NCBI GenBank assembly: GCA_021767325.1
Contig: JAASTM010000012.1
Coordinates: 1-14,230, forward strand
Length of the DNA stretch: 14,230 nt
Direction of reading: 5' to 3'
Source: Spirochaetales bacterium
GTDB taxonomy: Bacteria; Spirochaetota; Spirochaetia; DSM-16054; Sediminispirochaetaceae
Made by a program: the position numbers and the translations under genes. Positions 1 through 14,230 of the stretch are shown piece by piece (the stretch's first letter is position 1; each line of letters begins with the position of its first letter). The notes beneath the pieces are model-generated. The model ran no database searches and was not told the origin of the DNA. It saw only the letters and a list, made by a program, of their open reading frames with translations.

Positions 1-1538
1 AGGCTGGTGAAGTCGCGGATGTCGGCGAACAGCACGGTCATGCGGTGGCTGGCATGATCGCCGAGTTCGATCTCCATTACATTTTCTTTTTTGAGAAAGC
101 GCAGGAACTCCCGCGGAACGAAGCGCTCCATCGACTGGTTGAGCTGCCACAGGTGGGCGGCCATCTCTTCAGAACGTCGGAACGCATTGGCGAATTTCTT
201 GGTCATGACCATCGACTGAAAAAAGATGAACAGGAGCAGTCCAAAGGGCACCAGAAATATGGTCGGCAGCACCATGTACGTCTTCACTATGTCGTGGACT
301 GTTGTGGCAAACAAAAAACTGAATCCGACTATAAACAGGCCGGCGCCGGCTTTGCGCGTGTGCACAGCCTTTACCAGCACATAGAATACATACAAGGCCA
401 CCGTTATGGTAAATAGCTGAAAATACACCAGCAGACGCATATACACCGTAGCCGGCGTAAGCATGATCACCAATGAGTAGAGCAGTGCCAGAATGTCTAT
501 TACCCGCGGCACCGGCCGGTGCACGTGCTCGGGAAAGAGAGCATGGATAAAGCGGAAAAAGAAAAGCACCGCCAGCGAAAAAGTAAGATATCCGAGTTTC
601 GCTATTAGGGCCCATTGCATATCCGGAAAGAATTTCAGAATCATCAGCTCTTCGTACAGGATTATTCTGAAGGCCAGCACTAGGGTCAGCAGGGCAAAAA
701 ACAGGGGCGAAGCATCGCTGCGGCGGAAATAGTACAGGCCGAGGTGGTAGATGGACATGATAATAAGTGCCCCGAACAGAAACATGTCGTAGAGCATGCG
801 ATTGATGCGGTGCTGATACGCCTGAGATACCGTCCCCAGCTGGATTGAATCGACTACACCCCCGGTCCGGTCGTGAAAATTCGAAACCTGCAGCACAATG
901 TCCAGCCGCGGCTGATCGGCCTGAAAATCGACCACCGCCGGCCGCCACTCGGGAATCGACTCTTTCGGTGTTATGCCGACCTGGCCGGCCCGGTACACCA
1001 GCGTTCCGTTTATGTACATCCGGGCCGCAGATCCGATAAACCCAAACCGCAGGCCGAATGTTTCGGGGTACTCCGCCGGCAGCAGCACCTCGAGCCGGTA
1101 AGTTCCATACCCGTATTCGCTGATCTTTGTTGTAGAGAGGGATGAATCGGACCACATTCCGGGTAGGGGCATGTGGATGGGGGCCGTCGGGCCCTCCGCT
1201 TCCCCGGTCGGTGGGATGAGCTGGTTCCAGTAAAACTTCCACTCACCATCGAGCTTGATTGGGCCATCTTTTTCAAAGGAATAGGTTCGCAGATCGAGTA
1301 CGCCGTCCTGGATGTGCGGGCCTTGGGTGGTGGGGAGGGCCGCAGCGGGTGCATCGGTCTGCTGTGGGCGGTCGGCTGCTGGCCGCTCAACCGCCGTTCT
1401 CTTGGCTGTCTGCCGCGCGGTCGCCGGTTCTTCGGCAACCGACCGCTCAACCGCCGGAGCGGAAAAACTTGACACGAGAAGCAGTACAATGAAAATGAGA
1501 ACAGCATGCAATTGTGGGGTTCGTCGTCTGCTTTTCAC
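1..1538 (-). CDS. 7TMR-DISM membrane receptor with class III adenylate/guanylate cyclase domain (partial, 3' end outside window)
   Basis: Membrane-bound nucleotide cyclase that probably makes cAMP or cGMP in response to a periplasmic ligand. Reading from GTG at 1538, 512 codons are visible. A basic N-terminus and hydrophobic segment (about residues 11-26) form a signal peptide or anchor. Residues about 27-75 are an Ala/Pro/Arg-rich linker. Residues about 80-240 form a 7TMR-DISM-type sensor (LDGEWKFYW, then beta-rich sequence). Seven hydrophobic segments follow between about 249 and 444. A short linker with ERFVPREFL leads to the cyclase domain start, VLFADIRDFTS, where D506 is the expected first metal-binding Asp. 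The catalytic core lies beyond position 1. The start is GTG because an in-frame stop lies just upstream and no ATG is near; there is no Shine-Dalgarno, but a TATAAT box lies 10 nt upstream. A 357-codon open frame overlaps it in another frame and is a shadow. Functionally it looks unrelated to the neighbouring operon, from which a terminator separates it. Cyclase identity is firm; whether it makes cAMP or cGMP is not known. Confidence 0.88.
   Translation of the reverse strand, partial: MKSRRRTPQLHAVLIFIVLLLVSSFSAPAVERSVAEEPATARQTAKRTAVERPAADRPQQTDAPAAALPTTQGPHIQDGVLDLRTYSFEKDGPIKLDGEWKFYWNQLIPPTGEAEGPTAPIHMPLPGMWSDSSLSTTKISEYGYGTYRLEVLLPAEYPETFGLRFGFIGSAARMYINGTLVYRAGQVGITPKESIPEWRPAVVDFQADQPRLDIVLQVSNFHDRTGGVVDSIQLGTVSQAYQHRINRMLYDMFLFGALIIMSIYHLGLYYFRRSDASPLFFALLTLVLAFRIILYEELMILKFFPDMQWALIAKLGYLTFSLAVLFFFRFIHALFPEHVHRPVPRVIDILALLYSLVIMLTPATVYMRLLVYFQLFTITVALYVFYVLVKAVHTRKAGAGLFIVGFSFLFATTVHDIVKTYMVLPTIFLVPFGLLLFIFFQSMVMTKKFANAFRRSEEMAAHLWQLNQSMERFVPREFLRFLKKENVMEIELGDHASHRMTVLFADIRDFTS
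1383..1456. repeat. Two 14-bp direct repeats 60 bp apart inside the cyclase linker
   Basis: The sequence CCGCTCAACCGCCG occurs at 1383-1396 and again at 1443-1456. The 60-bp period is exactly 20 codons, so both copies encode the same short peptide (AVER) in the low-complexity linker between signal peptide and sensor domain. It looks like a remnant of an in-frame tandem duplication rather than a regulatory element. Confidence 0.5.
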
Positions 1539-1548
1539 AACAGGGATG

Positions 1549-1577
1549 ATTATAACGTGGGAGCTGAGTTTTGTCTT
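1549..1577 (-). promoter_or_regulatory. Candidate sigma-70-type promoter of the cyclase gene
   Basis: On the minus strand AAGACA (1577-1572, four of six matches to TTGACA) is followed by a 17-bp spacer and a consensus TATAAT (1554-1549). Transcription would start near 1541, about three bases before the GTG codon at 1538, so the message would be almost leaderless. The fit is good, but there is no experimental support. Confidence 0.5.
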
Positions 1578-1617
1578 TTTGTTTTAGTCCATTTTTCCGA
1601 ATCCACACCACAGCGGC

Positions 1618-1691: not shown

Positions 1692-2567
1692 TTATTTATA
1701 TTCCTCTAAAACCGCTTCAAGTGCTTTATCAATATCAGGACTCACGATATTGGCCGGCTCGCGTACTGGACCGACTTCGTATCCCATCAGTACCATCGCC
1801 CGCTTTACAATCGAGTTCGGGTTTCCGAGCTTAAAGGTAGTTCGAAAGGGCCCGATTTTTTCCTGTCGTGTGCGGGCGGTGTCCAAATCGCCGGCCTTCC
1901 AGGCATCGTAAATTCCCGCCATGAGCTGGGGGAATGGATTCGCACAGCCGGCAACCGCACCTTGTCCGCCATACTGGAGGGTTTCCAGAATAAGCGAATC
2001 GGTTCCAACCAGCATGGAAAAGTCATCTCCGGTCAGGTCAATATAGCGTTTCACATTCTCCATTTTACCGCTGCTGTCTTTAATACCGATTATGTTATCG
2101 ATCTCAGACAGGCGCTTAACGGTTTCCGGTTCGATATGATTACCGGTGCGCATGGGAATATTATAGATCATAACCGGAATATCTACCGACTCGGCAACAG
2201 TTTTGTAGTGGCGGTAGAGCTGATCCTGGGAGAGTCCGACAAAATAGGGAACGATAACAGATAGCGCATCTACCCCTAAGGCCGCAGTCGCCCGCGCCAG
2301 TTCCACCGTTTCGCGGGTAGTTATGCAGCCTACCCCGGCGGCAATCGGTATACGTCCACTGTTTTGGTCCACGATTGTCCGGGCAACCTCTAGTCGTTCT
2401 TCATGCTGCATTGCATAGAACTCCGAATTTGTTCCTAAACAAAACAGACCGTGCACTCCCGCTTCGATCTGGCGGTCCACCTGTCGGCGCAGCTCTGCAT
2501 AATTGATCGACTCGTCCGCATGCATTGGTGTAATGAGTGCGGTTAGCACTCCTTTCGGTTGAAACAT
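1692..2567 (-). CDS. DapA/NanA-family (dihydrodipicolinate synthase family) lyase/aldolase
   Basis: Class I (Schiff-base) aldolase of the DapA/NanA TIM-barrel family, 291 residues, normal length. Members form an imine between a Lys and pyruvate (or a 2-keto acid) and make or break a C-C bond. Visible residues, numbered from ATG 2567: catalytic Lys163 in GIKDSSG, Tyr135 in YNIP, Tyr108 in VPYF, Thr46 in LGTNSE (GTTGE in DapA) and Arg140 in MRTG. The start is ATG 2567 because AAGGAG sits 5 nt upstream; the GTG at 2573 overlaps that Shine-Dalgarno. It is the last gene of the operon, 12 nt after the ATPase F stop and before the terminator. It is probably not biosynthetic DapA: it sits with acid-sugar genes and a transporter, and the GTTGE motif is altered. 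It more likely cleaves a 2-keto-3-deoxy acid to pyruvate plus an aldehyde. Family is certain; substrate is not. Confidence 0.92.
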   Translation of the reverse strand: MFQPKGVLTALITPMHADESINYAELRRQVDRQIEAGVHGLFCLGTNSEFYAMQHEERLEVARTIVDQNSGRIPIAAGVGCITTRETVELARATAALGVDALSVIVPYFVGLSQDQLYRHYKTVAESVDIPVMIYNIPMRTGNHIEPETVKRLSEIDNIIGIKDSSGKMENVKRYIDLTGDDFSMLVGTDSLILETLQYGGQGAVAGCANPFPQLMAGIYDAWKAGDLDTARTRQEKIGPFRTTFKLGNPNSIVKRAMVLMGYEVGPVREPANIVSPDIDKALEAVLEEYK

Positions 2568-2579
2568 ACTCACTCCTTG

Positions 2580-3563
2580 TTATACTAAATGACAGGCAAC
2601 CAGATGTCCTGGCCCCTTTTCTTCTAATTCGGGCACCTCGCGTGAACATATCTCCTGTGCCAGGGGACAGCGCGTATGGAAACGGCAGCCGCTAGGCGGC
2701 TCGAGAGCGTCGGGCACATCCCCTTCCAGAATAATCCGCTGGCGATCGCGCTCCGCATCTGGATCGGCTTCCGGAACCGCAGAAAGCAGCGCCTTGGTGT
2801 ACGGATGCAGCGGATTTTCGAACAAATCGTTCTTACCGGCTATCTCGGCCAGCCGGCCGAGGTACATCACCGCGATTCGATCGCATATATGACGAACTAC
2901 CGCCAAATCGTGGGCGATAAACAGATATGTGAGGTTATACTTTTCCTGCAGATCCTGCATCAGATTGATAATTTGGGCTTGCACCGACACATCCAGCGCT
3001 GAAACCGGTTCGTCGCAGACCACGAACTCGGGTTCGATCGCCAGTGCCCTGGCGATACAAATTCTCTGTCGTTGTCCGCCGGAAAACTCATGCGGATAGC
3101 GGTTCGCCAGCGCCGGCTTCAGTCCGACGTCTTTCAGCAGCTCGGCCACACGGTTTTTGATCTCGCTCTTCCCCATCAAGTTATGCGCACGAATCGGTTC
3201 GCCGATACTCTCACCGATAGTCATACGGGGGTTAAGAGTAGAATAGGGATCTTGAAAAATAATCTGTATCCGTTTCCGTAGGGGCCGCAAATCTTTTTCG
3301 TCCAGCGTAGTAAGATCTTGCCCGTCGAAAATGACATGTCCGGCCGTCGCCCTGTGCAACTGGACAATTGTAAATCCGGTAGTCGATTTACCGCAGCCGG
3401 ATTCTCCCACGAGACCGATTGTCTCACCGCGGAAAATATCCATCGACAATCCGTCTATGGCATGCACTACACCAGAGCGCTCGCCAAAGGCTCCCAGTTT
3501 CACAGGGAAATGCTTTTTTAGGTCTTGTACCGAAAGTACTACGTTACTCTGTTGTGCGTTCAT
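2580..3563 (-). CDS. Dipeptide/oligopeptide-type ABC transporter ATP-binding protein F
   Basis: Cytoplasmic ATPase (327 residues) of a peptide-type (Opp/Dpp) importer, the second nucleotide-binding subunit and partner of the D ATPase. Numbered from ATG 3563: Walker A GESGCGKS 53-60, Q-loop in IIFQDPYSTLNP about 102-112, signature FSGGQRQR 160-167, Walker B VVCDEP 181-186 and H-loop His218. The C-terminal oligopeptide-ABC extension carries Cys293, 299, 306 and 324, spaced like the iron-sulfur cluster ligands reported for some DppD proteins. The frame stays open to 3665, but the start is placed at ATG 3563: a GGGGGAGGCGAG Shine-Dalgarno region precedes it, the ATG overlaps the preceding stop as ATGA, and the upstream 34 codons repeat the tail of the D gene in another frame. 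Co-translation with D is likely. The cargo cannot be read from the ATPase. Confidence 0.95.
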   Translation of the reverse strand: MNAQQSNVVLSVQDLKKHFPVKLGAFGERSGVVHAIDGLSMDIFRGETIGLVGESGCGKSTTGFTIVQLHRATAGHVIFDGQDLTTLDEKDLRPLRKRIQIIFQDPYSTLNPRMTIGESIGEPIRAHNLMGKSEIKNRVAELLKDVGLKPALANRYPHEFSGGQRQRICIARALAIEPEFVVCDEPVSALDVSVQAQIINLMQDLQEKYNLTYLFIAHDLAVVRHICDRIAVMYLGRLAEIAGKNDLFENPLHPYTKALLSAVPEADPDAERDRQRIILEGDVPDALEPPSGCRFHTRCPLAQEICSREVPELEEKGPGHLVACHLV

Positions 3564-4558
3564 CTCGCCTCCCCCGTCTTCGTATTTACCCAACAGGCCA
3601 CATTGTGCGTCCCGTCTCCGCTCACGGAGTCCACCGCAGAGAGGGTCGGATTCTCTTTCCAGCAACGATCGATACTGAACGTGCAGCGCGGAGCAAAGGG
3701 GCAGAACTGCGGCTTCTCCAGCAGATCCGGGGGCGATCCGTCGATTGAGGAGAGCCGGCTTACGGTAGATCCGCGTAATTTCGGGATACTCTGCAGCAGG
3801 CCCATTGTGTAGGGGTGGCGGGGATTCTTGTACAGCTCGTCTACCAAAGCCTCCTCGACGATAAAACCGGCATACATCACGATAATCCGATCGACCATCC
3901 CCGCAATCAAACCGAGGTCGTGAGTTATCAGAATGATCGAAGAGTCGAGCTTCGACCGGATATCCTTGATCAATTCTACTATCTGAGCCTGGATTGTCAC
4001 GTCCAGCGCGGTGGTGGGCTCGTCGGCAATCAAGACCTCCGGATCGCAGGTCAATGCCATCGCTATCATGACTCTCTGCCGCATCCCCCCCGAAAGCTGA
4101 TGCGGATATTCGTTCAAACGTTCGCGCGGGTTCGAGATCCCTACCAGTTCCAGCAGTTCGGCACTCCTATCCAGGGCGGCTTCCTTAGAGAGCTTATTAT
4201 GGTATCTGAGGGCCTCGATCATCTGAGTCCCGATCTTCATAACCGGGTTGAGTGAGGTCATCGGATCCTGGAAGATCATACCGATCTTCTTGCCACGGAT
4301 ATGCTGCACCTGCCGACGAGTCATTTTCCGAATATCTTTCCCGTCGAACAGTACTTGCCCGTTTTCGATGGTAGCCGCAGGCGGAAGCAGGTTGACTATA
4401 CTCAGCATACTGACGCTTTTCCCGCACCCGCTCTCTCCGACAACCCCCAGCATTTCGCCTTTCTTCAGCGTAAAAGAGACGCCGTTTACTGCGTGTACTT
4501 TGGTTTTTCGTTGTTTAAAAGTCGTCTCCAGATCACGCACTTCTAATATAGTTTTCAC
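3560..4558 (-). CDS. Dipeptide/oligopeptide-type ABC transporter ATP-binding protein D
   Basis: Cytoplasmic ATPase (332 residues from GTG 4558) of the same importer. Numbered from that GTG: Walker A GESGCGKS 41-48, Q-loop Gln97 in [11 protein letters not shown], signature LSGGMRQR 155-162, Walker B VLIADEP 175-181 and H-loop His213. The C-terminal HPYT extension has Cys286, 292, 299 and 322, a possible [4Fe-4S] site. Two starts are possible. ATG 4576 lies 3 nt after the permease C stop but has only a poor Shine-Dalgarno. GTG 4558 has AGGAG six nt upstream and gives the family-typical start [10 protein letters not shown], so I prefer it; ATG 4576 would add six residues. The stop overlaps the next ATG (ATGA), so D and F are probably translationally coupled. 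Confidence 0.94.
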
Positions 4559-4579
4559 TTGTCTCTCCTGTTCCATGCA

Positions 4580-5572
4580 CTATTCCCACTGTCGCGGATT
4601 AAATGCGTCATTCAGGCCGTCACCCAGAAAGCTGAATGCCATAGTGACAACCGCCAGCACTCCGGCCGGTGCGGCCAAAATATGTGGATGTAGGTGCCAT
4701 ACCCGCAAACCGTCGCTGATCATGTTTCCCCAACTGGGCATCGGCGGACGTACGCCTACTCCGAGAAAACTGAAGGCGGACTCCAATACCATCGCTTCGC
4801 CAAGAATCGCACTGAAAAGCACGATAACCGGCCCCATCGCATTGGGAATAATATAGCGGCGCAATATACCGAAGGTTGTTACGCCGGCGGCGCGGGCCGC
4901 GACCACATAATTCTTATTCCGAATAGAGAGAATTTGCCCCCGGATGATTCGAGCCGCCTTCGGCCATTTAATCAAGGCCAGCGAACCGAACACCAGCACA
5001 AAATCGACCCAAATTGTCTCCCTGAAGATCGGATTTTTGGTAGCCAGGTACTGTTCCTCCATCCAGCGTATCATCGGCGGCTTCAGCGAGGCGTTGATTA
5101 CAACCACCAATAGCAGTGATGGGATCGACATCGTCAGGTCGATAAGCCACACGATAAAGGCATCGACTTTACCGCCGACATACGCCCCCACCGAACCGAT
5201 AATAATGCCGATTAAAAAACTCAGCACTGTAATCGAGATCGATAATATAACGGCGGTACGAGCACCGTAAATGACCCTACTCAGGACATCGCGGCCGAGG
5301 TCGTCGGTTCCAAACGGGTGCGCCCAAGAGATTCCCTGGTTGCGAATCTCCAGGTTCTGCGAGAGAAAATCGTAGGGTGTAATATATGGTCCGAAGAGAG
5401 CGATGAATATCAACAATGAAATAATAATCAATCCAACGACCGCACCCTTATTGGCGATTAAACGCAGAAACGCATCTTTCGTAAGGCTTTCAGTAGGCGC
5501 ATTATCTATGCTGTTAATTACATTATCTTCCGGCTTAAAAACGGGATCCATAGTTTTTATTTTCTCTTTCAT
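4580..5572 (-). CDS. Dipeptide/oligopeptide-type ABC transporter permease C
   Basis: Inner-membrane permease of the DppC/OppC family, 330 residues. It has a polar N-terminus of about 40 residues, a first membrane helix (about 44-63), the family hallmark FGTDDLGRDVLSR (87-99), then five further membrane segments. The EAA-like cytoplasmic loop that contacts an ATPase is at about 221-244 (NYVVAARAAG, RRYIIPN), and the C-terminus has the usual FLGDGLNDAFNPR. An oddity is the stretch of about 24 extra residues at roughly 162-187 (RWMEEQYL region) compared with E. coli DppC as I recall it, between the PSLLL helix and the next one. The start ATG overlaps the permease B stop as ATGA, with AAGGA just upstream, so the two permeases are coupled. 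Confidence 0.94.
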   Translation of the reverse strand: MKEKIKTMDPVFKPEDNVINSIDNAPTESLTKDAFLRLIANKGAVVGLIIISLLIFIALFGPYITPYDFLSQNLEIRNQGISWAHPFGTDDLGRDVLSRVIYGARTAVILSISITVLSFLIGIIIGSVGAYVGGKVDAFIVWLIDLTMSIPSLLLVVVINASLKPPMIRWMEEQYLATKNPIFRETIWVDFVLVFGSLALIKWPKAARIIRGQILSIRNKNYVVAARAAGVTTFGILRRYIIPNAMGPVIVLFSAILGEAMVLESAFSFLGVGVRPPMPSWGNMISDGLRVWHLHPHILAAPAGVLAVVTMAFSFLGDGLNDAFNPRQWE

Positions 5573-6531
5573 GCTTCCTTAATCTCCTTCTTACTAAGCG
5601 CGCGCGGATCTAAAAGAGGAAACACTATATCGACCAGCAGGTTTACAGTGAGCACAACCGTCGACCCGATAAAGACAAGCGCAAGGATTACCGGGTAATC
5701 CGAAGTGGTTATGGCGGTAACCGCCAACTGTCCGAGACCGGGAATACCGAACACCGTTTCTATCAGAACCGCATTATTCAGCATATTTATGATGATAAGG
5801 CCGAGCTGGCTTACTACCGGTGTGAGCACCGGACGCATGATATGGCGTATAACGATAGTAAATCCGGGTATTCCTTTTGAGCGGGCTGTGCGAATAAAAT
5901 CCTCGCTTAATACCTCTAATACTGCCGCCCGGGCCTGCCGGATGATTAATGCCATCGGAGTTATCGCTAATACCAGTAAGGGCAATATGACCATCGAGTC
6001 GAAGAGCCCGTGCCACCCGTATGGCACATCCATTATATTTAGCACTTTCACAAACAGCATCATCAAGAGCGGGCCGGAGACAAAAACCGGCACCCCCCAT
6101 ATTCCCAGTGCAAATGCGGAGATAACGTTATCCAACCATCTGTTGTGGTTGAGCGCGGCAATAACACCAAGAGCTGTTCCGATTACAGCTAAGAGTGCTG
6201 TTGCTGCCAGGCCTAATTGCAGAGTAATGGGAAACGCATTACCGATGATACTTCCCACCGAACGTCCACTGGTAAGAGAGTTACCAAAGTCTCCCCGCAT
6301 CAAGTGCAATAGATAATCACCGAACTGGACTATAAAAGGCCGGTTCAAGCCGGCAGCTTCACGCATGGCTTCGATTCGCTCGGGATCGTACGCCACGTCA
6401 CCCGGCGCACGCAGAAAGATCAATTTAATCGGATCGCCTGCACCGAAGAAGGCCAATGCATACACCACAAAGAGTACGGCCAGTACGGTAGGTATCCATC
6501 GCAATAATCTATTTAATATATATTTCCACAT
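5569..6531 (-). CDS. Dipeptide/oligopeptide-type ABC transporter permease B
   Basis: Inner-membrane permease of the DppB/OppB family, 320 residues, normal length. It starts with the typical MWKYILNRLLRWIPT first helix, has GLNRPF and GDFGNSL in the periplasmic part (about 61-86), six predicted membrane segments, an EAA-type loop at about 208-225 (SEDFIRTARSKG), GIPGLGQL at 262-269 and the usual DPR near the C-terminus. It pairs with permease C to form the channel. GGAG five nt upstream supports ATG 6531. It lies 65 bases downstream of the binding-protein gene, and that gap contains a stem-loop. Confidence 0.95.
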   Translation of the reverse strand: MWKYILNRLLRWIPTVLAVLFVVYALAFFGAGDPIKLIFLRAPGDVAYDPERIEAMREAAGLNRPFIVQFGDYLLHLMRGDFGNSLTSGRSVGSIIGNAFPITLQLGLAATALLAVIGTALGVIAALNHNRWLDNVISAFALGIWGVPVFVSGPLLMMLFVKVLNIMDVPYGWHGLFDSMVILPLLVLAITPMALIIRQARAAVLEVLSEDFIRTARSKGIPGFTIVIRHIMRPVLTPVVSQLGLIIINMLNNAVLIETVFGIPGLGQLAVTAITTSDYPVILALVFIGSTVVLTVNLLVDIVFPLLDPRALSKKEIKEA

Positions 6532-6546
6532 GTCTTCTCCAAGAGG

Positions 6547-6578
6547 CAGGTGCGAGCGATCTGTTTCACCCGCACCTG
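6547..6578 (-). other. Intercistronic stem-loop between binding-protein and permease genes
   Basis: CAGGTGCG (6547-6554) and its exact reverse complement CGCACCTG (6571-6578) flank a 16-nt loop in the only sizeable gap inside the operon. No T-run follows in the minus direction, so it is not a normal terminator. In many ABC operons a hairpin here stabilises the upstream binding-protein mRNA against 3' decay and raises that protein over the membrane subunits. That role is inferred. Confidence 0.5.
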
Positions 6579-6596
6579 ATATTATGCATTAGTTGA

Positions 6597-8228
6597 CTAT
6601 TGAGCCATTTCTGCTTTCAGCTCTTCGTCTATATGGACAGCCCACGGTTTAATAACCTGCCAGTCGTCGTTCTTCTCGAAATTCTTTACCCACGGCATGG
6701 CCCATTTGGACATCGTGTCGTAGCGGTAAGGAATATACTGCCAGTCATCTCTGAAAATGCGCTGTGCTTGCTGTGCAAGTTCGATTCTTTCGGGGTTATC
6801 CACCGATTTAGTGGCCGCTTCTTCTAACAGAGCATCAATTCTCTCGTTTTCATAGCCGCCCATTTTCCGCTTTGCATTTCCCGAATCGGAGTGGATGGAA
6901 CCCATCAGGTAAGACACCATATCGGGAACACGGGTACCGACGTCGTCGCGGAACACTTGAATGTTGCCTTGATCGGGGCCTTCGTAACTATCGATGGCCG
7001 GCTTCATTTCAGTACCTTGGATTCCCAGTACCTGGCGCCACTGCTCGGCGATGTACTGTGCGGCCGCCTCGTGCGACGGGTTGCTGATGCCGACGAACAT
7101 GATCTTGGGCAGGTTTTCGGCGGAACCGTAACTGGAATCGGCCAGTGCAGCCTGGGCAGCTTCGGGATCGAAACCATACGGCTCGAAGTCGGGATCCACG
7201 CCCTTCACCTTGTTTACGATTTGTGTGGCCGGTTTGTGCGGTCCGTCCGGAAAGGCTACATCGAACATCTCTTTGGTATCGACCGCAAGAATCAGAGCTT
7301 TACGAACATTGATATCGTCCATCGGCGCTTTGCTCGAATTGAGCCAGAACTGATGTCCTTTGGCCAGCATAGATCCGTCGGCAAACTCCTTACCCAAGTC
7401 CTGAATCATAGTGGGGGTGTTGAGCTCGGTGTGGGCATCCATCTGTCCCCGTTGAAGCATCATGGTAGCTGTTTGAGCATCTTGTACGGTATTGATAATA
7501 ATTTTGTCGAGTCGTGGCTCCGGACCGAAGAAGTTCGGATTCTTCACCAATACGATCTCGCCGGTGTTCAAGTTCATCGACTCGGGCATGAACGGTCCGC
7601 TTACCACTACGTCGTTCTTGGGATGCCACCACTCTGTAATCTGCTGCCCGTTTTCATCCTGCGCCTGTGAGATCTTTACCGGCGGAATTAGAGCAGTTGC
7701 GAGCTTCTGATAGAAAATAGGATCGGGCTGACTGAGTGTAACTTCGATCGTACGATCGTCCTTTACCACGAGTCCCGACATCTCCATGGCTTCGCCGGTA
7801 CTGACCGCATCAAAGCCTTCTACCCCTGACAGAAACAGGTTTACCCGCTGATGTTTTGTACTCGGGCGGGTCGAAAGGTCCCAGGTTCCCTTTACATCTT
7901 CTGCGGTAATCGGGCTCCCATCTGAGAAGACCGCGTCTTCGGCTATAGTAAAAGTCCATACGGTACTGTCCGCATTACCCGACCAATCACTGAACACATA
8001 GGGCTGCAGCTCGCCGTCCGCATCGAAATACATCGGACTGGCCCACTGCAGTGAGAGCCAGCGAACTTCGTGCCCGCCTCCGTTTAACGGCGACCAGTTT
8101 GCACTGTTTACGGGATGGATTATCCGCAGCACCTGACCGCTTCCAGCCTCCTCCTGCGAACCATTAGCCATAGCTCCGGCTAATATGAGTACGCTAAGAA
8201 TCATTAGGGCTAATGCTTTTTTCATCAT
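6597..8228 (-). CDS. Periplasmic solute-binding protein of peptide-type ABC importer (SBP family 5)
   Basis: Periplasmic ligand-binding protein (543 residues) that delivers the cargo to permeases B and C. The N-terminus MMKKALALMILSVLILAGAMA is a signal peptide, probably cut before NGSQEEAG. There is no lipobox Cys, so the mature protein should be soluble in the periplasm. Family 5 (DppA/OppA type) features include SDWSGNADSTVWTFTI with AVFSDGSPITAEDV (about 80-115), the pattern around NVRKALILAVD (about 303-313) and the length. Start ATG 8228 has a strong AAGGAGG eight nt upstream. It follows pdxA2-like by 20 bases. Family 5 proteins bind peptides but also oligosaccharides, nickel, heme or sugar-phosphate conjugates. 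Given the catabolic neighbours, a sugar-acid-containing ligand is as likely as a peptide. Ligand unknown. Confidence 0.93.
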   Translation of the reverse strand: MMKKALALMILSVLILAGAMANGSQEEAGSGQVLRIIHPVNSANWSPLNGGGHEVRWLSLQWASPMYFDADGELQPYVFSDWSGNADSTVWTFTIAEDAVFSDGSPITAEDVKGTWDLSTRPSTKHQRVNLFLSGVEGFDAVSTGEAMEMSGLVVKDDRTIEVTLSQPDPIFYQKLATALIPPVKISQAQDENGQQITEWWHPKNDVVVSGPFMPESMNLNTGEIVLVKNPNFFGPEPRLDKIIINTVQDAQTATMMLQRGQMDAHTELNTPTMIQDLGKEFADGSMLAKGHQFWLNSSKAPMDDINVRKALILAVDTKEMFDVAFPDGPHKPATQIVNKVKGVDPDFEPYGFDPEAAQAALADSSYGSAENLPKIMFVGISNPSHEAAAQYIAEQWRQVLGIQGTEMKPAIDSYEGPDQGNIQVFRDDVGTRVPDMVSYLMGSIHSDSGNAKRKMGGYENERIDALLEEAATKSVDNPERIELAQQAQRIFRDDWQYIPYRYDTMSKWAMPWVKNFEKNDDWQVIKPWAVHIDEELKAEMAQ

Positions 8229-8248
8229 TTCAGTTCCCTCCTTAATAT

Positions 8249-9283
8249 TTATCGCACACGGCTCAAACGAACCGCATAGTCGATTGCTTGATTTAGACTT
8301 GCATGGCTGGCTTGCCCCTTACCTGCAAGGTCGAACGCTGTACCATGGTCCACCGATGTACGCACAATCGGCAGACCGAGGGTAATATTTACACCCGAGA
8401 CATCTCTGAACTTACCTGTGGCGGGATCTACCTGAAACCCAACCAACTTCAGAGGAATATGACCCTGGTCGTGATACATGACTACCACCGCCGAAAACTC
8501 ACCACCCATCGCGCGGGAGAAGACGGTATCCGGGGGTATAGGTCCCGCAACATTGAATCCATCGGCTTGGGCCTGTTTTATTGCGGGAATGATTTCATGC
8601 AGCTCCTCTTTTCCGAATAAGCCGTGTTCGCCGGCATGCGGATTTAACCCGGCCACTGCGACAACACCGTCGGTTCCATCCAACCGCCGGATCGCATCGG
8701 CGGTTAAGCGCACCACTTTTTCAACCCTCTCCTTGGTGGCCATGTCGCACGCTTCTCTAAGTGAAACGTGGGTGGACACATGCACTACCCGCAAGGGGTC
8801 ATGCACCAACATCATGGCGTAATCTTTAGTGCCCGTCTGCGCGGCAAATATTTCTGTGTGCCCCGCATGTGGTACTCCGGCCGCATTGAGCGCTTCCTTA
8901 TTGATCGGATTGGTAACTACCGCATCGACTCGGTCGTCTAAGGCGAAATCTATCGCCTTGGTAATACAGTCGTAGGCGGCCCGCCCGTATTCCGCTTTTA
9001 CTGTGCCGTATTCGAGGGTGTCCGCTGCGACCCCGCCCAAATCGTACACAGCCAGCTGCCGGACCGACAACTTTTCAATCGCTTCTCGCGTTATTTCTTT
9101 GATAGGAACCAGTTCGATTGGTGCGGAGGTAACGCGTGCCGCTCTATCGAGCACCTTCAAGTCGGCTACGGCTATAAGATCGGCCTGCGCGCGAACCGCA
9201 TCGTCGGCGGCCGATTTGATCAATATTTCAGGGCCAATACCTGCAGGATCGCCCATAGTGATTGCACACAGCGGAAGCGCCAT
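8249..9283 (-). CDS. pdxA2: PdxA2-like 4-phospho-D-threonate/D-erythronate 3-dehydrogenase
   Basis: NAD-dependent, metal-requiring dehydrogenase of the PdxA family, 344 residues. PdxA proper oxidises 4-phosphohydroxy-threonine for vitamin B6; PdxA2 enzymes oxidise 4-phospho-D-threonate or -erythronate at C3, and the product loses CO2 to give dihydroxyacetone phosphate. Visible: GDPAGIGPE (11-19), substrate-contact GHTE (141-144), the three metal His at 172 (STHVSL), 216 (GLNPHAGE) and 271 (MYHDQG), and TLGLPIVRTSVDHGTAFDLAG near the end. YHDQGHIPLK, where E. coli PdxA has YHDQGLPVLK, and above all the DUF1537 kinase in the same operon point to the PdxA2 catabolic branch. ATG 9283 overlaps the ADH stop by one base (TAATG), with GGAGG seven nt upstream. 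The family is certain; the substrate is inferred from context. Confidence 0.9.
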   Translation of the reverse strand: MALPLCAITMGDPAGIGPEILIKSAADDAVRAQADLIAVADLKVLDRAARVTSAPIELVPIKEITREAIEKLSVRQLAVYDLGGVAADTLEYGTVKAEYGRAAYDCITKAIDFALDDRVDAVVTNPINKEALNAAGVPHAGHTEIFAAQTGTKDYAMMLVHDPLRVVHVSTHVSLREACDMATKERVEKVVRLTADAIRRLDGTDGVVAVAGLNPHAGEHGLFGKEELHEIIPAIKQAQADGFNVAGPIPPDTVFSRAMGGEFSAVVVMYHDQGHIPLKLVGFQVDPATGKFRDVSGVNITLGLPIVRTSVDHGTAFDLAGKGQASHASLNQAIDYAVRLSRVR

Positions 9284-10446
9284 TATTTAGCCTCCATAAG
9301 TTGGGCGTAGATCGCACCAACTTGCTCTTTCGTAAGATCGACCGGATTATTGTCCATCAATCTGCGATTTTGATGGGCGCTTTGGATCAAGGTATCCATG
9401 TCTGTTTGTTTGACTCCGAAATCGCTAAGCGAGGTGTTGATAGCCAAGTCCGATAACAGGGTATGCAACTCTTTGACCAGATAATCGGCCGGGTCCTGCC
9501 GATCGTTTCGCTTGTCAAAACCGAAACATTCGGCCACCTTCTCTGTTTTTACCGGCATTGCCGCCACATTCTGTTCCATCACATATGGAAGCAGCATGGC
9601 ATTTGATTGACCGTGCGGGATATGGTACGTAGCGCCAAGTGGATATGAAAGGGCGTGCACGGCATTGGTCCCGGAAAGGGTAATACACATTCCCGAATAG
9701 TAGGAAGCAAGCAGCATATCGCTGCGCGCTTCAATGTCCCTGCCGTCTCCCATAACCTTTCTCAAGGAGCGGGCGATGCGCTTGATGGCGTCCAAGGCCA
9801 GCAGATCGCTCAGAGCATTCGCCTTCTTCGATAGATAACACTCCATCGCATGACAGAGGGCGTCCATACCGGTAGTAGCGGTTATCCCCGGCGGAAGACT
9901 CAACGTCAAACCAGGATCGAGAAGCACGAGATCCGGCAGTAAGCGTTCATGAACTACGGCTCCCTTGGTATTGCGGGATGGGATAGCAATAATCGCGTTC
10001 TTGGTCGCTTCGGCCCCGGTTCCGGCAGTAGTCGGAATCAGCGCAGTAAAAGTAGCATGCCGGGGAACGTCCTTGCCATCCAGTAGTTCCAGCACGGTCG
10101 CATCAGAACGAACCAATACCGAACAGAGCTTGCCGATATCTAGCACCGATCCCCCGCCGATGGCAACCACACCATCCGGGTTCAGTTGCTTCACACGTTC
10201 GACAACTCTATCTACATCCGGTACCCCCGGTTCACGGGGCAGGTCGGCTATTGTGTGTAGTTCGATGCCAGCCTTAGTAATAAAAGCGGACACTTCGTCA
10301 GCAATTCCGCTCTTCTCGATGCCTTCATCCGTGAGTATTACGAGGCTGGAGAGTTTATAATTCACAAGCAGGCTGCCGAGCTGTTCACGGCTACCGTTGC
10401 CCATTACGGTTCTAGAGGATGAAGAGAGATCAAATGCCATTTTCAT
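9283..10446 (-). CDS. Iron-containing (group III) alcohol dehydrogenase
   Basis: NAD(P)-dependent alcohol/aldehyde oxidoreductase of the Fe-ADH family, 387 residues, full length. The nucleotide-binding half carries GGGSVLDIGK (97-106) and PTTAGTGAE (138-146). The metal ligands are Asp195 and His199 (GMDALCHAME), His264 (VHALSYPLG) and His278 (IPHG). These are the four canonical positions, so the enzyme should be active. The start ATG overlaps the kinase stop as ATGA, with GGAG seven nt upstream. Family members reduce or oxidise short alcohols, lactaldehyde, 1,3-propanediol, glycerol or hydroxy acids, so the substrate cannot be named. In this operon it could interconvert an aldehyde released by the downstream aldolase, or oxidise the imported compound before phosphorylation. 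Confidence 0.93.
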   Translation of the reverse strand: MKMAFDLSSSSRTVMGNGSREQLGSLLVNYKLSSLVILTDEGIEKSGIADEVSAFITKAGIELHTIADLPREPGVPDVDRVVERVKQLNPDGVVAIGGGSVLDIGKLCSVLVRSDATVLELLDGKDVPRHATFTALIPTTAGTGAEATKNAIIAIPSRNTKGAVVHERLLPDLVLLDPGLTLSLPPGITATTGMDALCHAMECYLSKKANALSDLLALDAIKRIARSLRKVMGDGRDIEARSDMLLASYYSGMCITLSGTNAVHALSYPLGATYHIPHGQSNAMLLPYVMEQNVAAMPVKTEKVAECFGFDKRNDRQDPADYLVKELHTLLSDLAINTSLSDFGVKQTDMDTLIQSAHQNRRLMDNNPVDLTKEQVGAIYAQLMEAK

Positions 10447-11708
10447 ATTTTTACTCCTGTTGTGCCGAGATAATCCAGTACACCGGCCAGAGCGTTACTC
10501 TCACCGTATGAACCCGCTTTCGTAACGAATAGTGTTGGTTTGGTACTTCCGGGTATTTGGATTGTGGAGATAGGAATGCCGGGCGACACTTCGTCTATCA
10601 GTTTTATGCTGCCTATTTCTAAGCTTCTGAGAACGTTCAGAGCGGTATCGCCACCGGTTACAACCATCGCATCCAGCTCGGTCGCATTGACCACCCCCTT
10701 CACGACGCGACCGAGAGTGCTACCGACCTTAGACGCCACTAGGCTCTCATCGGTTTTACTCCGGTCGGTGCGCAACAAGACAATATCGCTCTGCTGATAC
10801 GCAGAGTTTATCGAATCTATTTGCAGCTTGATTTCAGACTCCAGTTCACTCAAAAGGTTCTCAGTACTGAGCATGCTGATATGAATCGGATTACGCTGCT
10901 GCATATATTCAACTTGCGAAAGAGTGGTTTCCATAAGGCTCCCAACAACGAATAGAATCTTTGGTGTATTATCCGTGTTCAAAGCAACCCGGTCTGTGTG
11001 TGTAACTGCAGTATCCTTCATTGCGTGGAATAGTCCGGCAGAGCCGACATAGAGTACCTGTTGGGCTAGATGCTCAAACAGACGTGTGCTGACTCGCAGG
11101 TCATCCACAGTTTCCGCATCACTGACTATGATCTCCGCTCCGGCTTCTACAAGCTTGGTAAGATAGCTCTGTGCTTCTGCGAAGGGTGATCTAATGATCT
11201 CCAGCGGCAAAAGCTCAGTCGAGCGTCTGGATTGCGCGGTAATTATTTTTCGGATGTCGGAAAAATGCACCGGAGTAAACGGATCTTTGGCCATCTCGGT
11301 ATCGCCCAACTCAACTCCATTCACGTAACATACTCCATTTTTTACAGTACGTCCATTTCTTGGAGTTGCAGTTGCAACACAGGCGAGATGAAAACCGACC
11401 GTATCCATTACCGCATCGATTTCCGCACCGACGTTGCCTCTTAATGTAGAATCAACCTTTTTATAGATCTCTTTTGGTCGGGGATGTACATAAGCGTTCA
11501 TGCTCTCGCTCACTTTTTGATACGCCGTCTCCCGGCTGCATAACCTCGAGTCGGTGTTTATCACAACAGTATCGGCAGTTGGAGTCGAGGAATCTTTTTT
11601 TGGATCAACTACTACAACTACCTCATTGTCAGCAGCGAGAAAGTGGACTCCGGTATCATTCGACCCGGTAAGGTCATCAGCTATCACAATTCGTTGTATC
11701 TTTTTCAT
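10443..11708 (-). CDS. Four-carbon acid sugar kinase (DUF1537 family, DtnK/OtnK-like)
   Basis: ATP-dependent kinase of the DUF1537 family, 421 residues from ATG 11708, full length. Family members phosphorylate D-threonate, D-erythronate or 3-keto/2-keto tetronates at O4. N-terminal substrate domain: ADDLTGSNDTG (10-20), INTDSR (50-55), KKVDSTLRGN (83-92), TPRNGRTV (115-122) and VNGVELGDTEMAKDP (129-143). C-terminal nucleotide domain: VGSAGL (221-226), VVGSL (254-258), VTGGDTA (350-356), PGIP (376-379) and VTKAGSYG (395-402). It is the first gene of the operon. With the PdxA2-like gene two positions downstream it forms the known C4-acid-to-DHAP pair. GTG at 11711 is an alternative start. No usable Shine-Dalgarno exists: GGAG is only 2 nt away, and the predicted sigma-54 transcript starts at 11711-11709. 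Expression should be inducible through the divergent regulator. Confidence 0.93.
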   Translation of the reverse strand: MKKIQRIVIADDLTGSNDTGVHFLAADNEVVVVVDPKKDSSTPTADTVVINTDSRLCSRETAYQKVSESMNAYVHPRPKEIYKKVDSTLRGNVGAEIDAVMDTVGFHLACVATATPRNGRTVKNGVCYVNGVELGDTEMAKDPFTPVHFSDIRKIITAQSRRSTELLPLEIIRSPFAEAQSYLTKLVEAGAEIIVSDAETVDDLRVSTRLFEHLAQQVLYVGSAGLFHAMKDTAVTHTDRVALNTDNTPKILFVVGSLMETTLSQVEYMQQRNPIHISMLSTENLLSELESEIKLQIDSINSAYQQSDIVLLRTDRSKTDESLVASKVGSTLGRVVKGVVNATELDAMVVTGGDTALNVLRSLEIGSIKLIDEVSPGIPISTIQIPGSTKPTLFVTKAGSYGESNALAGVLDYLGTTGVKI

Positions 11709-11819: not shown

Positions 11820-11828
11820 ATATATACA

Positions 11829-11852
11829 TATGGTGAATTTATCATCACCATA
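11829..11852. promoter_or_regulatory. Candidate enhancer (activator-binding) site: 8-8-8 interrupted palindrome
   Basis: TATGGTGA (11829-11836) and its exact reverse complement TCACCATA (11845-11852) are separated by 8 bp. The centre lies about 130 bp upstream of the predicted sigma-54 start, the usual distance for an enhancer site of a sigma-54 activator with a Fis-type HTH. It is also about 24 bp upstream of the regulator's putative -35 box, so autoregulation is possible. Function is inferred from symmetry and position. Confidence 0.6.
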
Positions 11853-11875
11853 CTGGCGAAATATTGATTATTTTT

Positions 11876-11911: not shown

Positions 11912-13834
11912 ATGAAGATCCTTTTAGTAGCACCCTACCCAGACTTAGTAAAAACGGCTCAAGCGACCCTTGAAACATCGCCCTATTCGGTAAAGATATT
12001 ACTCGGGGACCTTCAACAGGGACTCGAGGTTGCCGGATCACAAATCGCGAGAAATGAAGCCGACATTGTTGTCAGCAGAGGCGGAACTGCTTCTCTGCTG
12101 CGTCAGAACCTCACCATTCCCGTCTTCGAGATCGATGTCAGCGGCTACGACCTGATGCGCAGCATCTATCCACAGGTAAGACGTAACCGCAAGATAGCGG
12201 TTGTCGGGTATGAGAACGTCATCAGCGGAGCTCGCAGCATCGCCGAAATCATTGGAATCAATCTGGGCTACTTTCAGGTAAACTCCCAACAGACCATCGA
12301 AGCGGTCATCAGAGAAGCCAGAGAGTGGGGAGCCGAGATAGTAATCGGGGATACGGTTTCGGTGCAAACTGCTAGGGAACAGGGGATAGCCAGCGAACTG
12401 GTACGTTCCGGCCCCGAGGCGGTCCTTCAGGCAGTAGAGGCGGCGGCCAGTTTTCTCGGCCATATGAAAAATGAGATAATTCGTAATAAACGCTTCAATT
12501 TAATAATGGAGCACAGCGACCAAGGAGTTGTGTACTTAGCTAAGGACGGGTGCGTGGAGTTATTGAATACCCATGCCGAACAGATCCTGCAAACGAGCCG
12601 GGACCAACTGGTAGGGCGCCCTTTCAATACGGATACTGCACCGAAAGAGCTTGTTGAGGCGGTTGCCAATAAAGCGACTCACCAGCTTATACGCGTAAAA
12701 GAAAAAGACTATATGGTCGAGGTGATGGACCTAAATAGCGAGGGCAACCATGCAGCCACCTTAGTGTTTTTACAAAGCAGTGGCCGGATCAGAGATTTAG
12801 AAGGAATTATGCGAAAACAGATGGCCAGCCGCGGGCTGATCGCCACTTACAAATTCGATACCATGATCGCCAAGAACGGAGCTATTAAGAAAACAATCGA
12901 AAAGGCTCGCCGCTACAGCAGCACTAACTCAACTATTCTTTTGTTGGGAGAAACCGGTTCCGGTAAAGAAGTGTTTGCACAGAGCATCCACAACTCCTCG
13001 TTAAGAAAAGACGGACCCTTTGTAGCAGTAAACTGTGCGGCACTTCCCGATAGCCTACTCGAAAGCGAACTGTTCGGGTATGCGGAAGGGGCTTTTACGG
13101 GCGCCAAAAAGGGGGGCAAACCGGGGTTATTCGAGATGGCCCATAAAGGCACTATTTTTCTCGACGAAGTGAACGATATGAGCAATACGGTTCAGGCGCG
13201 GTTTTTAAGGGTACTGCAGGAAAAGCAGGTAATGCGGGTCGGCGATAATCGCCTCTACGATGTAGATGTACGGGTCATAGCCGCGTGCAATAAAAACTTG
13301 TATGAGGAGACCGAGGCGGGTCGCTTTCGCCGAGATCTCTATTACCGACTGAGAGTGCTGGATATTGAAATTCCACCTCTTAGAAAGCGCAAGGAGGATA
13401 TACTTCCGCTTTTCCAGTTTTTCGTTTCCAGCTTTAACGAAAAGTATAACTACACAGCGCAGGGCATCTCTTCCAGTTTGAAAGATGCCTTACTTGCGGC
13501 GCGGTGGCCGGGAAATGTGCGTCAATTGAGGAATTTTGCCGAAAAAGTGAGCGTCCTGTTTTCTCTGCACCAGGACAAACAGGAAATCGAACAGGACCTC
13601 ATCAGTGAACTTCAGCAGGATGCGTGCGCGGAGGCTCAGCCCGAACCGCACAGTTCTCCCGTTCCGACAGGAACGGCCGGTTTTTCAAAGAAAAAGCTTA
13701 AAGAGATCAATGCGGCGGTAATTCATGAGTGCTGGATGGACAATGACCGGAATATAAGTAAAACGGCCCGCACACTCGGGATAGACCGAGCGACTGTAAG
13801 AAAACACCTGCAGATGATAGAGACACCGAATTAG
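11912..13834 (+). CDS. PrpR-type sigma-54-dependent transcriptional activator (PrpR_N, PAS, AAA+, Fis HTH)
   Basis: Cytoplasmic enhancer-binding protein, 640 residues, that senses a small molecule and opens sigma-54 promoters by ATP hydrolysis. Domains: PrpR_N effector domain about 1-185 ([17 protein letters not shown] at 53-60; FEIDVSGYD at 72-80), PAS domain about 193-288, AAA+ about 315-550 with Walker A GETGSGKE (346-353), the sigma-54-contacting GAFTGA (393-398), Walker B TIFLDEV (414-420), arginine-finger region [10 protein letters not shown] (471-480) and RWPGNVRQL (531-539). A Fis-type HTH lies at about 610-635 ([20 protein letters not shown]). All key residues are present. The frame opens further upstream, with a possible start at 11864, but MKILLVAPY is the usual PrpR_N beginning and 11912 fits the promoter. 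It is divergent from the catabolic operon and is its likely activator. The effector may be the pathway substrate or a phosphorylated intermediate; that is inference. Confidence 0.93.
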
Positions 13835-13939: not shown

Positions 13940-14230
13940 ATGGATAAGCCGAAAATTGCACTGGTAACCGGAGCTGCCGGCACGATGGGGATGGCCGTGA
14001 CCGAAACCTTTATTTCCGAGGGAATCGAGGTGGTTATGGTCGATATTGTCGGGGACAAGCTCGAATCAGCGGCCGAGCGGCTCGGCCCGCAGGCGCATCC
14101 CTATGCCTTTGATATCAGCGATCCGGAACAGGTGGAAACATCCGTGCGGAAGATCACACAAGAGGTCGGCCCGGTTACCATACTGGTGAACAACGCCGGC
14201 ATTCTGTCGAACAACAAAGTAATGGAAACT
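13940..14230 (+). CDS. Short-chain dehydrogenase/reductase (partial, 3' end outside window)
   Basis: The N-terminal 97 residues of a classical SDR (NAD(P)-dependent oxidoreductase, Rossmann fold). Visible: first beta strand IALVTG and the cofactor loop TGAAGTMG (10-17), an acidic residue at the end of strand 2 (Asp35 in VVMVDI), which usually means NAD(H) preference, DISD (58-61) for adenine contact, and the NNAG motif at 84-87. The catalytic Ser-Tyr-Lys lies beyond the window. The usual second Gly of TGxxxGxG is Thr15 here. The start is ATG 13940 because GGAGG lies five nt upstream; an in-frame ATG at 13928 would add four residues but has a poorly spaced site. It is co-directional with the regulator, 105 bases away. 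It may belong to the same sugar or sugar-acid pathway, but that is unproven. Confidence 0.88.
   Translation, partial: MDKPKIALVTGAAGTMGMAVTETFISEGIEVVMVDIVGDKLESAAERLGPQAHPYAFDISDPEQVETSVRKITQEVGPVTILVNNAGILSNNKVMET

Follow-up and report, generated by a model that had tools for sequence, protein, structure and literature searches.

What do the nine genes of a spirochaete operon take up and degrade? The window, the whole 14,230-base stretch analysed here (Spirochaetales bacterium, assembly GCA_021767325.1, contig JAASTM010000012.1), encodes in transcription order a DUF1537 kinase, an iron-containing alcohol dehydrogenase (Fe-ADH), a PdxA2-like dehydrogenase, the importer components OppA, OppB, OppC, OppD and OppF, and a DapA-family lyase (Table 1). 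We propose that the substrate is very probably a heptulosarate, namely 3-deoxy-D-lyxo-hept-2-ulosaric acid (DHA) or another acid of this class, and that the operon probably imports and degrades DHA itself, free or as a small ketoside. We prefer DHA because of the recurrence of the enzymes as a cassette, the coupling of the importer to them, a ulosonate signature in related loci, loci for rhamnogalacturonan-II (RG-II), a putative parallel module for 3-deoxy-D-manno-oct-2-ulosonic acid (KDO), the stereochemistry and an arginine of the lyase. On balance, we also lean towards a broader proposal, in which these genes form a complete DHA route, a single widespread cassette with interchangeable carriers that extends over spirochaetes, rhizobia, Paenibacillus, Bacillus and enterics and, in RG-II degraders, has a sister module for KDO as its partner.

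A candidate route from a C7 diacid

The reactions and the ligand that we infer from the observed genes, layout, conservation and neighbourhoods would be as follows. OppABCDF would import DHA, and the lyase, a predicted 3-deoxy-heptulosarate aldolase, would cut it by retro-aldol cleavage, releasing pyruvate and the C4 semialdehyde 2,3-dihydroxy-4-oxobutanoate, which, like aspartate semialdehyde, bears a carboxylate. Reduction of this semialdehyde by the Fe-ADH, its predicted reductase, would give D-threonate. Family-level knowledge suggests the last two steps: the kinase, a predicted D-threonate 4-kinase, would form 4-phospho-D-threonate, and the PdxA2-like protein, a predicted 4-phospho-D-threonate 3-dehydrogenase, would oxidise and decarboxylate it to dihydroxyacetone phosphate (DHAP) and CO2. 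The reduction by the Fe-ADH and the oxidation by the PdxA2-like enzyme would balance.

Since the last two enzymes belong to C4 acids and the lyase releases pyruvate, the substrate would have seven carbons; since the semialdehyde would need reduction alone to become a tetronate, it would be a diacid. Bookkeeping on Fischer projections gave D-threonate from D-lyxo DHA after cleavage and reduction, and of the eight isomers D-xylo also does so. Aldehyde oxidation is rare among Fe-ADH families, and a DAH-type heptulosonate, which would give a tetrose requiring such oxidation, was rejected as substrate. So were free KDO and sialic acid, which would yield D-arabinose or a hexosamine in place of a C4 acid. 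The initial annotation had offered several ligands. Comparison favours one of them, a C7 2-keto-3-deoxy acid split into pyruvate and a C4 unit, and within this class points to a heptulosaric (di)acid, DHA being the strongest candidate; an acylated or peptidyl sugar acid found no support.

The proposed logic is that of the GarL-GarR-GarK route for galactarate and glucarate, in which a keto-deoxy diacid is cut to pyruvate and a carboxylate semialdehyde that is then reduced and phosphorylated. The window's pathway would differ in starting from C7 instead of C6, in its DHAP-forming exit and in its DapA-family lyase, Fe-ADH, DUF1537 kinase and decarboxylating dehydrogenase, all of other families. 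Its probable last two steps to DHAP share their kinase and dehydrogenase families with the D-threonate pathway, reportedly described by Zhang et al. in 2016 (PNAS 113:E4161), in which the C4 acid itself is said to be the food; the window adds an upstream lyase and an Fe-ADH, which would make that C4 acid from a C7 acid. Sialic-acid catabolism (NanA, NanQ, SiaT/SiaPQM/SatABCD; an excerpt of PMC10017367) shares a DapA/NanA-superfamily lyase with the window, and its NanQ-like anomerase, sialidase-fold gene and carrier classes recur in the window's relatives. In contrast to that system, the window has no N-acetylmannosamine kinase or epimerase, and a C4 branch takes their place.

Enzymes of the operon

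Pfam and NCBIfam agree with the gene families named in the initial annotation, and L-threonate genes, which it had reported as absent, were found neither among the ten scanned proteins nor in the two partial flanking genes. The DUF1537 domains and the PdxA-family gene that make up the D-threonate pair stand in one operon. Neither protein reaches the curated NCBIfam cut-offs for D-threonate kinase and D-threonate 4-phosphate dehydrogenase: the kinase scores 273 bits against NF047819 (D-threonate kinase; cut-off 450) and the PdxA2-like protein 318 bits against NF002891 (cut-off 583). The latter passes TIGR00557 (pdxA) with 343 bits (cut-off 290), and its closest solved relatives are 4-hydroxythreonine-4-phosphate dehydrogenase 2 (2hi1) and a protein named D-threonate 4-phosphate dehydrogenase (6e85).

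The lyase keeps the Schiff-base Lys and active-site Tyr of DapA (dihydrodipicolinate synthase, DHDPS), which we take to be K161 and Y133 in E. coli numbering. Aligned with solved DHDPS chains, it departs from them at two active-site places, with GTNSE for GTTGE and PYF for PYY; the second Thr of GTTGE and Tyr107 are presumably active-site residues of DHDPS. In the DapA superfamily, the carboxylate of aspartate semialdehyde is bound by an Arg that adjoins the catalytic Tyr. The window's lyase is one of 36 among 42 that keep this Arg, which is missing at that column from both KDO-type lyases. The 42 are what remains of 48 rows after removal of the two KDO-type lyases, two fragments (L049 and L092) and two unrelated DapA proteins (L011_15125 and L042). 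A rule by which the Arg would cover all lyases was ruled out, as 6 of the 42 lack it.

Recurrence of the four-enzyme cassette

When one genome of each species was scanned, 572 kinase matches were confirmed, the best 80 of which were taken as kinase loci. In 23 of the 80, from Spirochaetota, Bacillota and Pseudomonadota, both a DapA-family lyase gene and an Fe-ADH gene stand no more than 11 kb from the kinase; an alternative rule, by which all four enzymes had to be called in the locus, also gives 23, in a slightly different set that adds L003 and misses L030. The transporters of the 23 cassettes under the 11-kb rule, which the initial annotation recommended noting, are SSF (11 cassettes), TTT (5), TRAP (2), MFS (2), Opp (2; L001 and L002) and one untyped (L025, with a family 1 binding protein nearby). 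Counting related clusters, the four-enzyme set recurs with carriers of the Opp-type ABC, SSF, TRAP, TTT, MFS and SLC13 classes. L001 and L002 share the order kinase, Fe-ADH, PdxA2, lyase, OppABCDF, with a divergent PrpR gene, and both operons run on into a gene of the sialidase fold, BNR_2 (L092; that of L002 is split by the contig end). The Fe-ADH clade at 65% identity is present in 3 of 119 genomes of L001's order, and nine further loci retrieved through lower-scoring matches hold the same enzymes. The nearest named relatives of the window's kinase are from spirochaete metagenome-assembled genomes; a contig scan with this kinase alone as query confirmed no relative.

The enzymes might merely scavenge D-threonate or D-erythronate, with the importer carrying free C4 acids and the Fe-ADH and DapA-like protein engaged in side reactions. 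Such scavenging would suit the closest named families (D-threonate kinase and D-threonate 4-phosphate dehydrogenase) and the many loci that hold kinase and PdxA2 without DapA or Fe-ADH. However, DapA and Fe-ADH accompany the kinase across phyla and D-threonate requires neither, while 6 of the 20 RG-II (GH138) loci described below have the DapA/Fe-ADH pair but neither kinase nor PdxA2 close by. We therefore consider scavenging improbable.

A sialidase-fold gene and the ulosonate signature

BNR_2 genes were detected in 14 of the 80 kinase loci, 13 of them inside the 23 cassettes (Fisher p 4e-8, for loci that are not independent); the fourteenth locus, L071, also has lyase and Fe-ADH. BNR_2 of the cassette type is present in 9 of 299 Pseudomonadota genomes, eight of which have lyase, Fe-ADH and PdxA2 beside it, and a search of the Bacillota sample (E<=1e-40) returned it from 1 of 299 genomes, the centre genome G001. 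Among the nine further loci, BNR_2 occurs in L117, L119, L120 and L123 and a 2-hydroxyacid dehydrogenase in L115, L121 and L122, with neither in L116 and L118. The model of BNR_2 matches GH33 sialidases. Stating plainly that it is a ketosidase was rejected on two grounds: where sialidases would have their first catalytic Arg, all 18 rows show His in an alignment made by eye against the motif, and a disaccharide seems too large for several of the carriers.

NanQ/YhcH-family genes are found in some related loci. TTT and SLC13 carriers are typical of di- and tricarboxylates. The remaining classes associated with the cassette (SSF, TRAP, MFS and peptide-like ABC) coincide with those listed for sialic acid in an excerpt of PMC10017367.

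Coupling of the importer to the proposed pathway

The window encodes a full Opp/Dpp importer, with a family 5 binding protein, two permeases and two ATPases with oligo_HPY. The first 40 residues of the OppA-like protein contain no Cys, so it is probably not a lipoprotein. Its clade was matched in 4 of 299 Pseudomonadota (E<=1e-60), 1 of 296 Spirochaetota (1e-60), 4 of 394 Spirochaetia (1e-120) and, in the order to which G168 belongs, 7 of 175 genomes (1e-100). These samples overlap, and the matches come from 13 distinct genomes in all; as scoring was limited to a small number of top candidates in each genome, some members may have been missed. Near OppA, a DapA-type lyase is encoded in all 13, kinase and BNR_2 in 12 each, PdxA2 in 11 and Fe-ADH in 9. 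The contig of G168 ends inside OppD and shows no kinase; G1054 lacks BNR_2 on a contig of 15.8 kb. In G1054, OppA is 75% identical to the window's, whereas kinase, Fe-ADH and lyase are only 32-39% identical. The same functions thus come from different lineages, which argues that the importer is coupled to them by function. In G1354 and G1388 (L225 and L226), an SDR gene stands beside PdxA2 and lyase and no Fe-ADH was found; the SDR protein is a possible non-homologous stand-in for the semialdehyde reductase.

The importer also matched 131 plasmid records. In the two that were opened, from Rhizobium binae and Pleomorphomonas, it adjoins kinase, PdxA, Fe-ADH, sialidase-fold and lyase genes, though the Pleomorphomonas record annotates two of them, for the kinase and the sialidase-fold protein, as hypothetical. 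Relatives of OppA include those of Marispirochaeta and Cohaesibacter, both marine genera. DHA also occurs in prasinophyte scales (PMC6930497, in part), so marine relatives of the importer would have a food source.

An ordinary peptide importer beside an unrelated sugar-acid operon would agree with the OppA model, which is closest to OppA, DppE and MppA. Against such a chance neighbourhood stand the single strand, the overlaps or short gaps between the genes, the lack of a strong terminator inside the set, and the lyase found nearby in 13 of 13 genomes with the importer clade; we judge it highly improbable. Importers of this type had been expected in the initial annotation to carry larger solutes. 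This argument is unsafe, since other carriers replace Opp in related clusters and the ABC importer SatABCD, which carries sialic acid, has a solute-binding protein with closer affinity to the peptide-binding ones (PMC10017367, in part).

Loci for rhamnogalacturonan-II and a putative parallel KDO module

According to an excerpt of PMC12168206, KDO and DHA occur in plants only in RG-II, a part of the pectin of the plant wall that is abundant in fruit, chocolate and wine (PMC12282258, in part). DHA is a rare and poorly understood acid sugar of plant and algal walls. In Paenibacillus sp. Soil766 (L025, L082 and L083) the cassette lies among GH95, GH78, GH29, GH138, apiosidase-like, GH2, GH42 and GH106 genes, and the GH138 protein is related to the RG-II galacturonidase (PDB 6hzf, E 6e-187; NCBIfam NF049878). 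A reverse search started from GH138 in 104 genomes of the family of Soil766, Paenibacillaceae. Near-full-length GH138 (at least 877 bits) was present in 27, none above the NCBIfam cut-off. For the 20 best-scoring of these 27 genomes, one locus each was inspected with 20 kb per flank, and an enzyme was called when a match covered half the query with at least 38% identity. Lyase and Fe-ADH occur together in 10 of the 20 loci and all four enzymes in four, while a second DapA, of the KDO type, is present in 13 and two BNR_2 genes in 14, in related genomes that are not independent.

A candidate sister module is seen elsewhere as well. In the koala-gut bacterium Lonepinella koalarum, a second cluster (L086:8516-17101) ends about 3 kb from the cassette and encodes an isomerase of the FucI type (L-fucose/D-arabinose), BNR_2, TctCBA, a KDO-type DapA and an FGGY kinase; judged by these families, it looks like a KDO-degrading module that would yield pyruvate and D-arabinose. 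Succinivibrio carries isomerase, FucU, BNR_2 and TctCBA on a contig other than that of the cassette, with no KDO-type DapA seen beside them. Such sets would provide a large part of the functions required to degrade KDO to pyruvate and D-arabinose. A KDO-type lyase with a D-arabinose isomerase and a sugar kinase was not found among the scanned proteins of the window, the flanking partial genes included.

Observations in tension with DHA

Several results weigh against DHA as the substrate, or against a single cassette with a single role. The window contains neither BNR_2 nor a 2-hydroxyacid dehydrogenase, one of which is present in 20 of the 23 cassettes. In the 13 Opp-type genomes, BNR_2 lies near OppA in 12, and no gene within the 14,230 bases of the window encodes it; as the contig is short, the gene may lie elsewhere in the genome, or the window's version of the pathway may take free DHA. 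Seven of the 23 cassettes have a 2-hydroxyacid dehydrogenase and no BNR_2, so that the cassettes need not all share one substrate, and the acid used by those seven may be a different, though related, one. Of the nine Pseudomonadota genomes with BNR_2, the remaining one, G236 (L135), has just an SSF carrier beside it, the four enzymes not being found in 20 kb, and the 33 kb inspected around OppA in G1409 and G1436 showed no PdxA2 and no Fe-ADH. The window's lyase passes the DapA equivalog profile TIGR00674 (227 bits, cut-off 206); in the lyase tree it has no supported close group and stands apart from the other Opp-type spirochaete lyases. The lyases without the Arg are those of L136, L138, L140 and L151, which are all rows of a second lyase type, and those of L076 and L122; the Rhizobium and Pleomorphomonas lyases cluster with this second type. 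The GH138 search covered one family. Half of its loci (10 of 20) are without the DapA/Fe-ADH pair, with Fe-ADH alone in two (more than 20 kb off) and none of the enzymes in eight. In 6 of the 10 loci with the pair, the flanks of about 20 kb contain neither a kinase nor a PdxA2 that reaches 38% identity. Lastly, a looser version of the sigma-54 pattern described below stands 5' of just 6 of the 44 kinase genes that have a PrpR-like gene in their vicinity and of 3 of the 47 that do not, which indicates that this control element is not general among kinase genes.

The same chemistry could act on another heptulosaric acid or C7 keto-deoxy diacid, such as the D-xylo isomer, an ester or a lactone, with DHA left to the BNR_2-bearing relatives. 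The lack of BNR_2 in the window and the seven cassettes with a 2-hydroxyacid dehydrogenase in its stead are consistent with this, and the D-xylo isomer would likewise yield D-threonate. Nevertheless, the Opp clade of the window accompanies BNR_2 in 12 of 13 genomes, and we know of no natural D-xylo heptulosarate. We regard such a substrate as unlikely and retain DHA as the probable one.

A related island in Escherichia coli

A related enteric cassette matches 1,043 of 5,426 complete E. coli genomes, over about 56% of the query at 74%, the SSF part being absent. All 35 listed E. coli matches (34 records) carry sialidase-type, DHDPS-family, TerC-family and Fe-ADH features, one with an IS1 transposase between them. 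In NZ_LR778152.1 (1962090-1971069; L230) the island lies between glnS and nagE and encodes a D-threonate kinase, a D-threonate 4-phosphate dehydrogenase, an Fe-ADH and a lyase, together with TerC-family, sialidase-family, YhcH and SLC13 genes; K-12 MG1655 has no gene between glnS and nagE. The island thus shares the four enzyme families with the window, with a sialidase-fold gene and YhcH in addition in the opened record, and differs in having SLC13 and TerC-family proteins where the window has Opp.

In the part of PMC12928451 (2026) that concerns strain BEN2908, the island between nagE and glnS is listed as GR 6, a similar Sinorhizobium meliloti cluster is noted, and the kinase/PdxA2 pair is tied to vitamin B6 synthesis, with reference to Thiaville 2016. 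By that account, the DUF1537 kinase and PdxA2 would salvage 4-hydroxythreonine to vitamin B6 by making the substrate of PdxA. Salvage would leave unexplained the lyase, the Fe-ADH, the sialidase-fold gene, the anomerase and the RG-II neighbourhoods, and PMC9997740, in the part concerned, treats PdxA2 as an enzyme of organic-acid catabolism, though capable of the PdxA reaction. We find it barely credible for this operon.

Degradation of DHA, if true, would explain an island matched in about one-fifth of complete E. coli genomes and would correct the labels 'exo-alpha-sialidase', 'dihydrodipicolinate synthase' and 'PdxA' in records of rhizobia, Pantoea and E. coli. The defined gene set makes the bacterial fate of DHA testable in ordinary laboratory bacteria. 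Among open-licence papers we found no characterised pathway with this gene set, in line with the initial annotation, and no description of bacterial DHA breakdown, which, given that scope, is weak evidence.

Operon layout, control elements and flanking genes

All nine ORFs (open reading frames) are intact and on the minus strand, from the kinase (11708) through the lyase (1692). Neighbouring genes are separated by -4 (kinase/Fe-ADH), -1 (Fe-ADH/PdxA2), 20 (PdxA2/OppA), 65 (OppA/OppB, the largest), -4 (OppB/OppC), 3 (OppC/OppD), -4 (OppD/OppF, with OppF from ATG 3563) and 6 (OppF/DapA) bases. With a strong hairpin after the last gene, this bears out the single nine-gene operon of the initial annotation. 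Terminator-like sites number 13 in the window against 9.5 expected from shuffles, and the weaker ones therefore have little meaning.

Table 1. Genes and signals of the 14,230-base window; percentages are identities to the copies in the named loci.
Feature	Position	Strand	Observations
DUF1537 (SBD_N/NBD_C) four-carbon acid sugar kinase	10443..11708	-	Pfam/NCBIfam; closest solved 4xfm/4xgj
Iron-containing alcohol dehydrogenase (Fe-ADH)	9283..10446	-	65-66% identical to copies in L001, L002, L003
PdxA2-like dehydrogenase	8249..9283	-	Closest solved 2hi1 and 6e85
Family 5 solute-binding protein (OppA-like)	6597..8228	-	Signal-like N-terminal stretch; model mean pLDDT 91
OppB-like permease	5569..6531	-	67% to L001
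OppC-like permease	4580..5572	-	73% to L001
OppD-like ATPase	3560..4576	-	65% to L001
OppF-like ATPase	2580..3563	-	ATG 3563; longer mechanical ORF from 3665; 68% to L001
DapA/NanA-superfamily lyase	1692..2573	-	Pfam, NCBIfam, alignment
Intrinsic-terminator-like hairpin	1658-1627	-	14 pairs, then TCTTTTTTTG; 3' of last gene; strongest in window
Sigma-54 type -24/-12 promoter motif	11736-11721	-	Exact, TGGCACGATCCTTGCT
Inverted repeat TGGTGA...TTCACCA	11828..11853		Lies between the divergent genes; L001 and L002 have a similar repeat 5' of the kinase
PrpR_N / PAS / sigma-54 AAA+ activator	11912..13834	+	Mechanical ORF from TTG 11864; ATG ~11912; 64% to L001
Partial gene, 7TMR-DISM_7TM domain	3-1583	-	Cut by window start
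SDR-family gene, start only	13940-14230		After PrpR-type gene, cut by window end

A PrpR-type activator gene is divergent from the operon. The initial annotation listed neither this PrpR_N/sigma-54 activator nor the fact that other genomes conserve the operon's arrangement. Judging from its domains and the promoter motif, we infer that the activator would turn the operon on via sigma-54; the inverted repeat between the divergent genes is a possible activator site. The motif has one match in the window against 0.35 expected (at most one mismatch), so its position weighs more than its count. It ends just 12 bases 5' of the kinase ATG (11708), and the operon transcript would consequently be almost leaderless. 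In L001 a sigma-54-like site, with one mismatch by eye, is similarly close, immediately 5' of its kinase.

Rfam and tRNA scans of the window returned no match. The partial SDR gene was rejected as a member of the pathway, its matches being only 32-37% identical. At the other edge, the visible end of the truncated 7TMR-DISM_7TM gene reads to us like the beginning of a cyclase domain.

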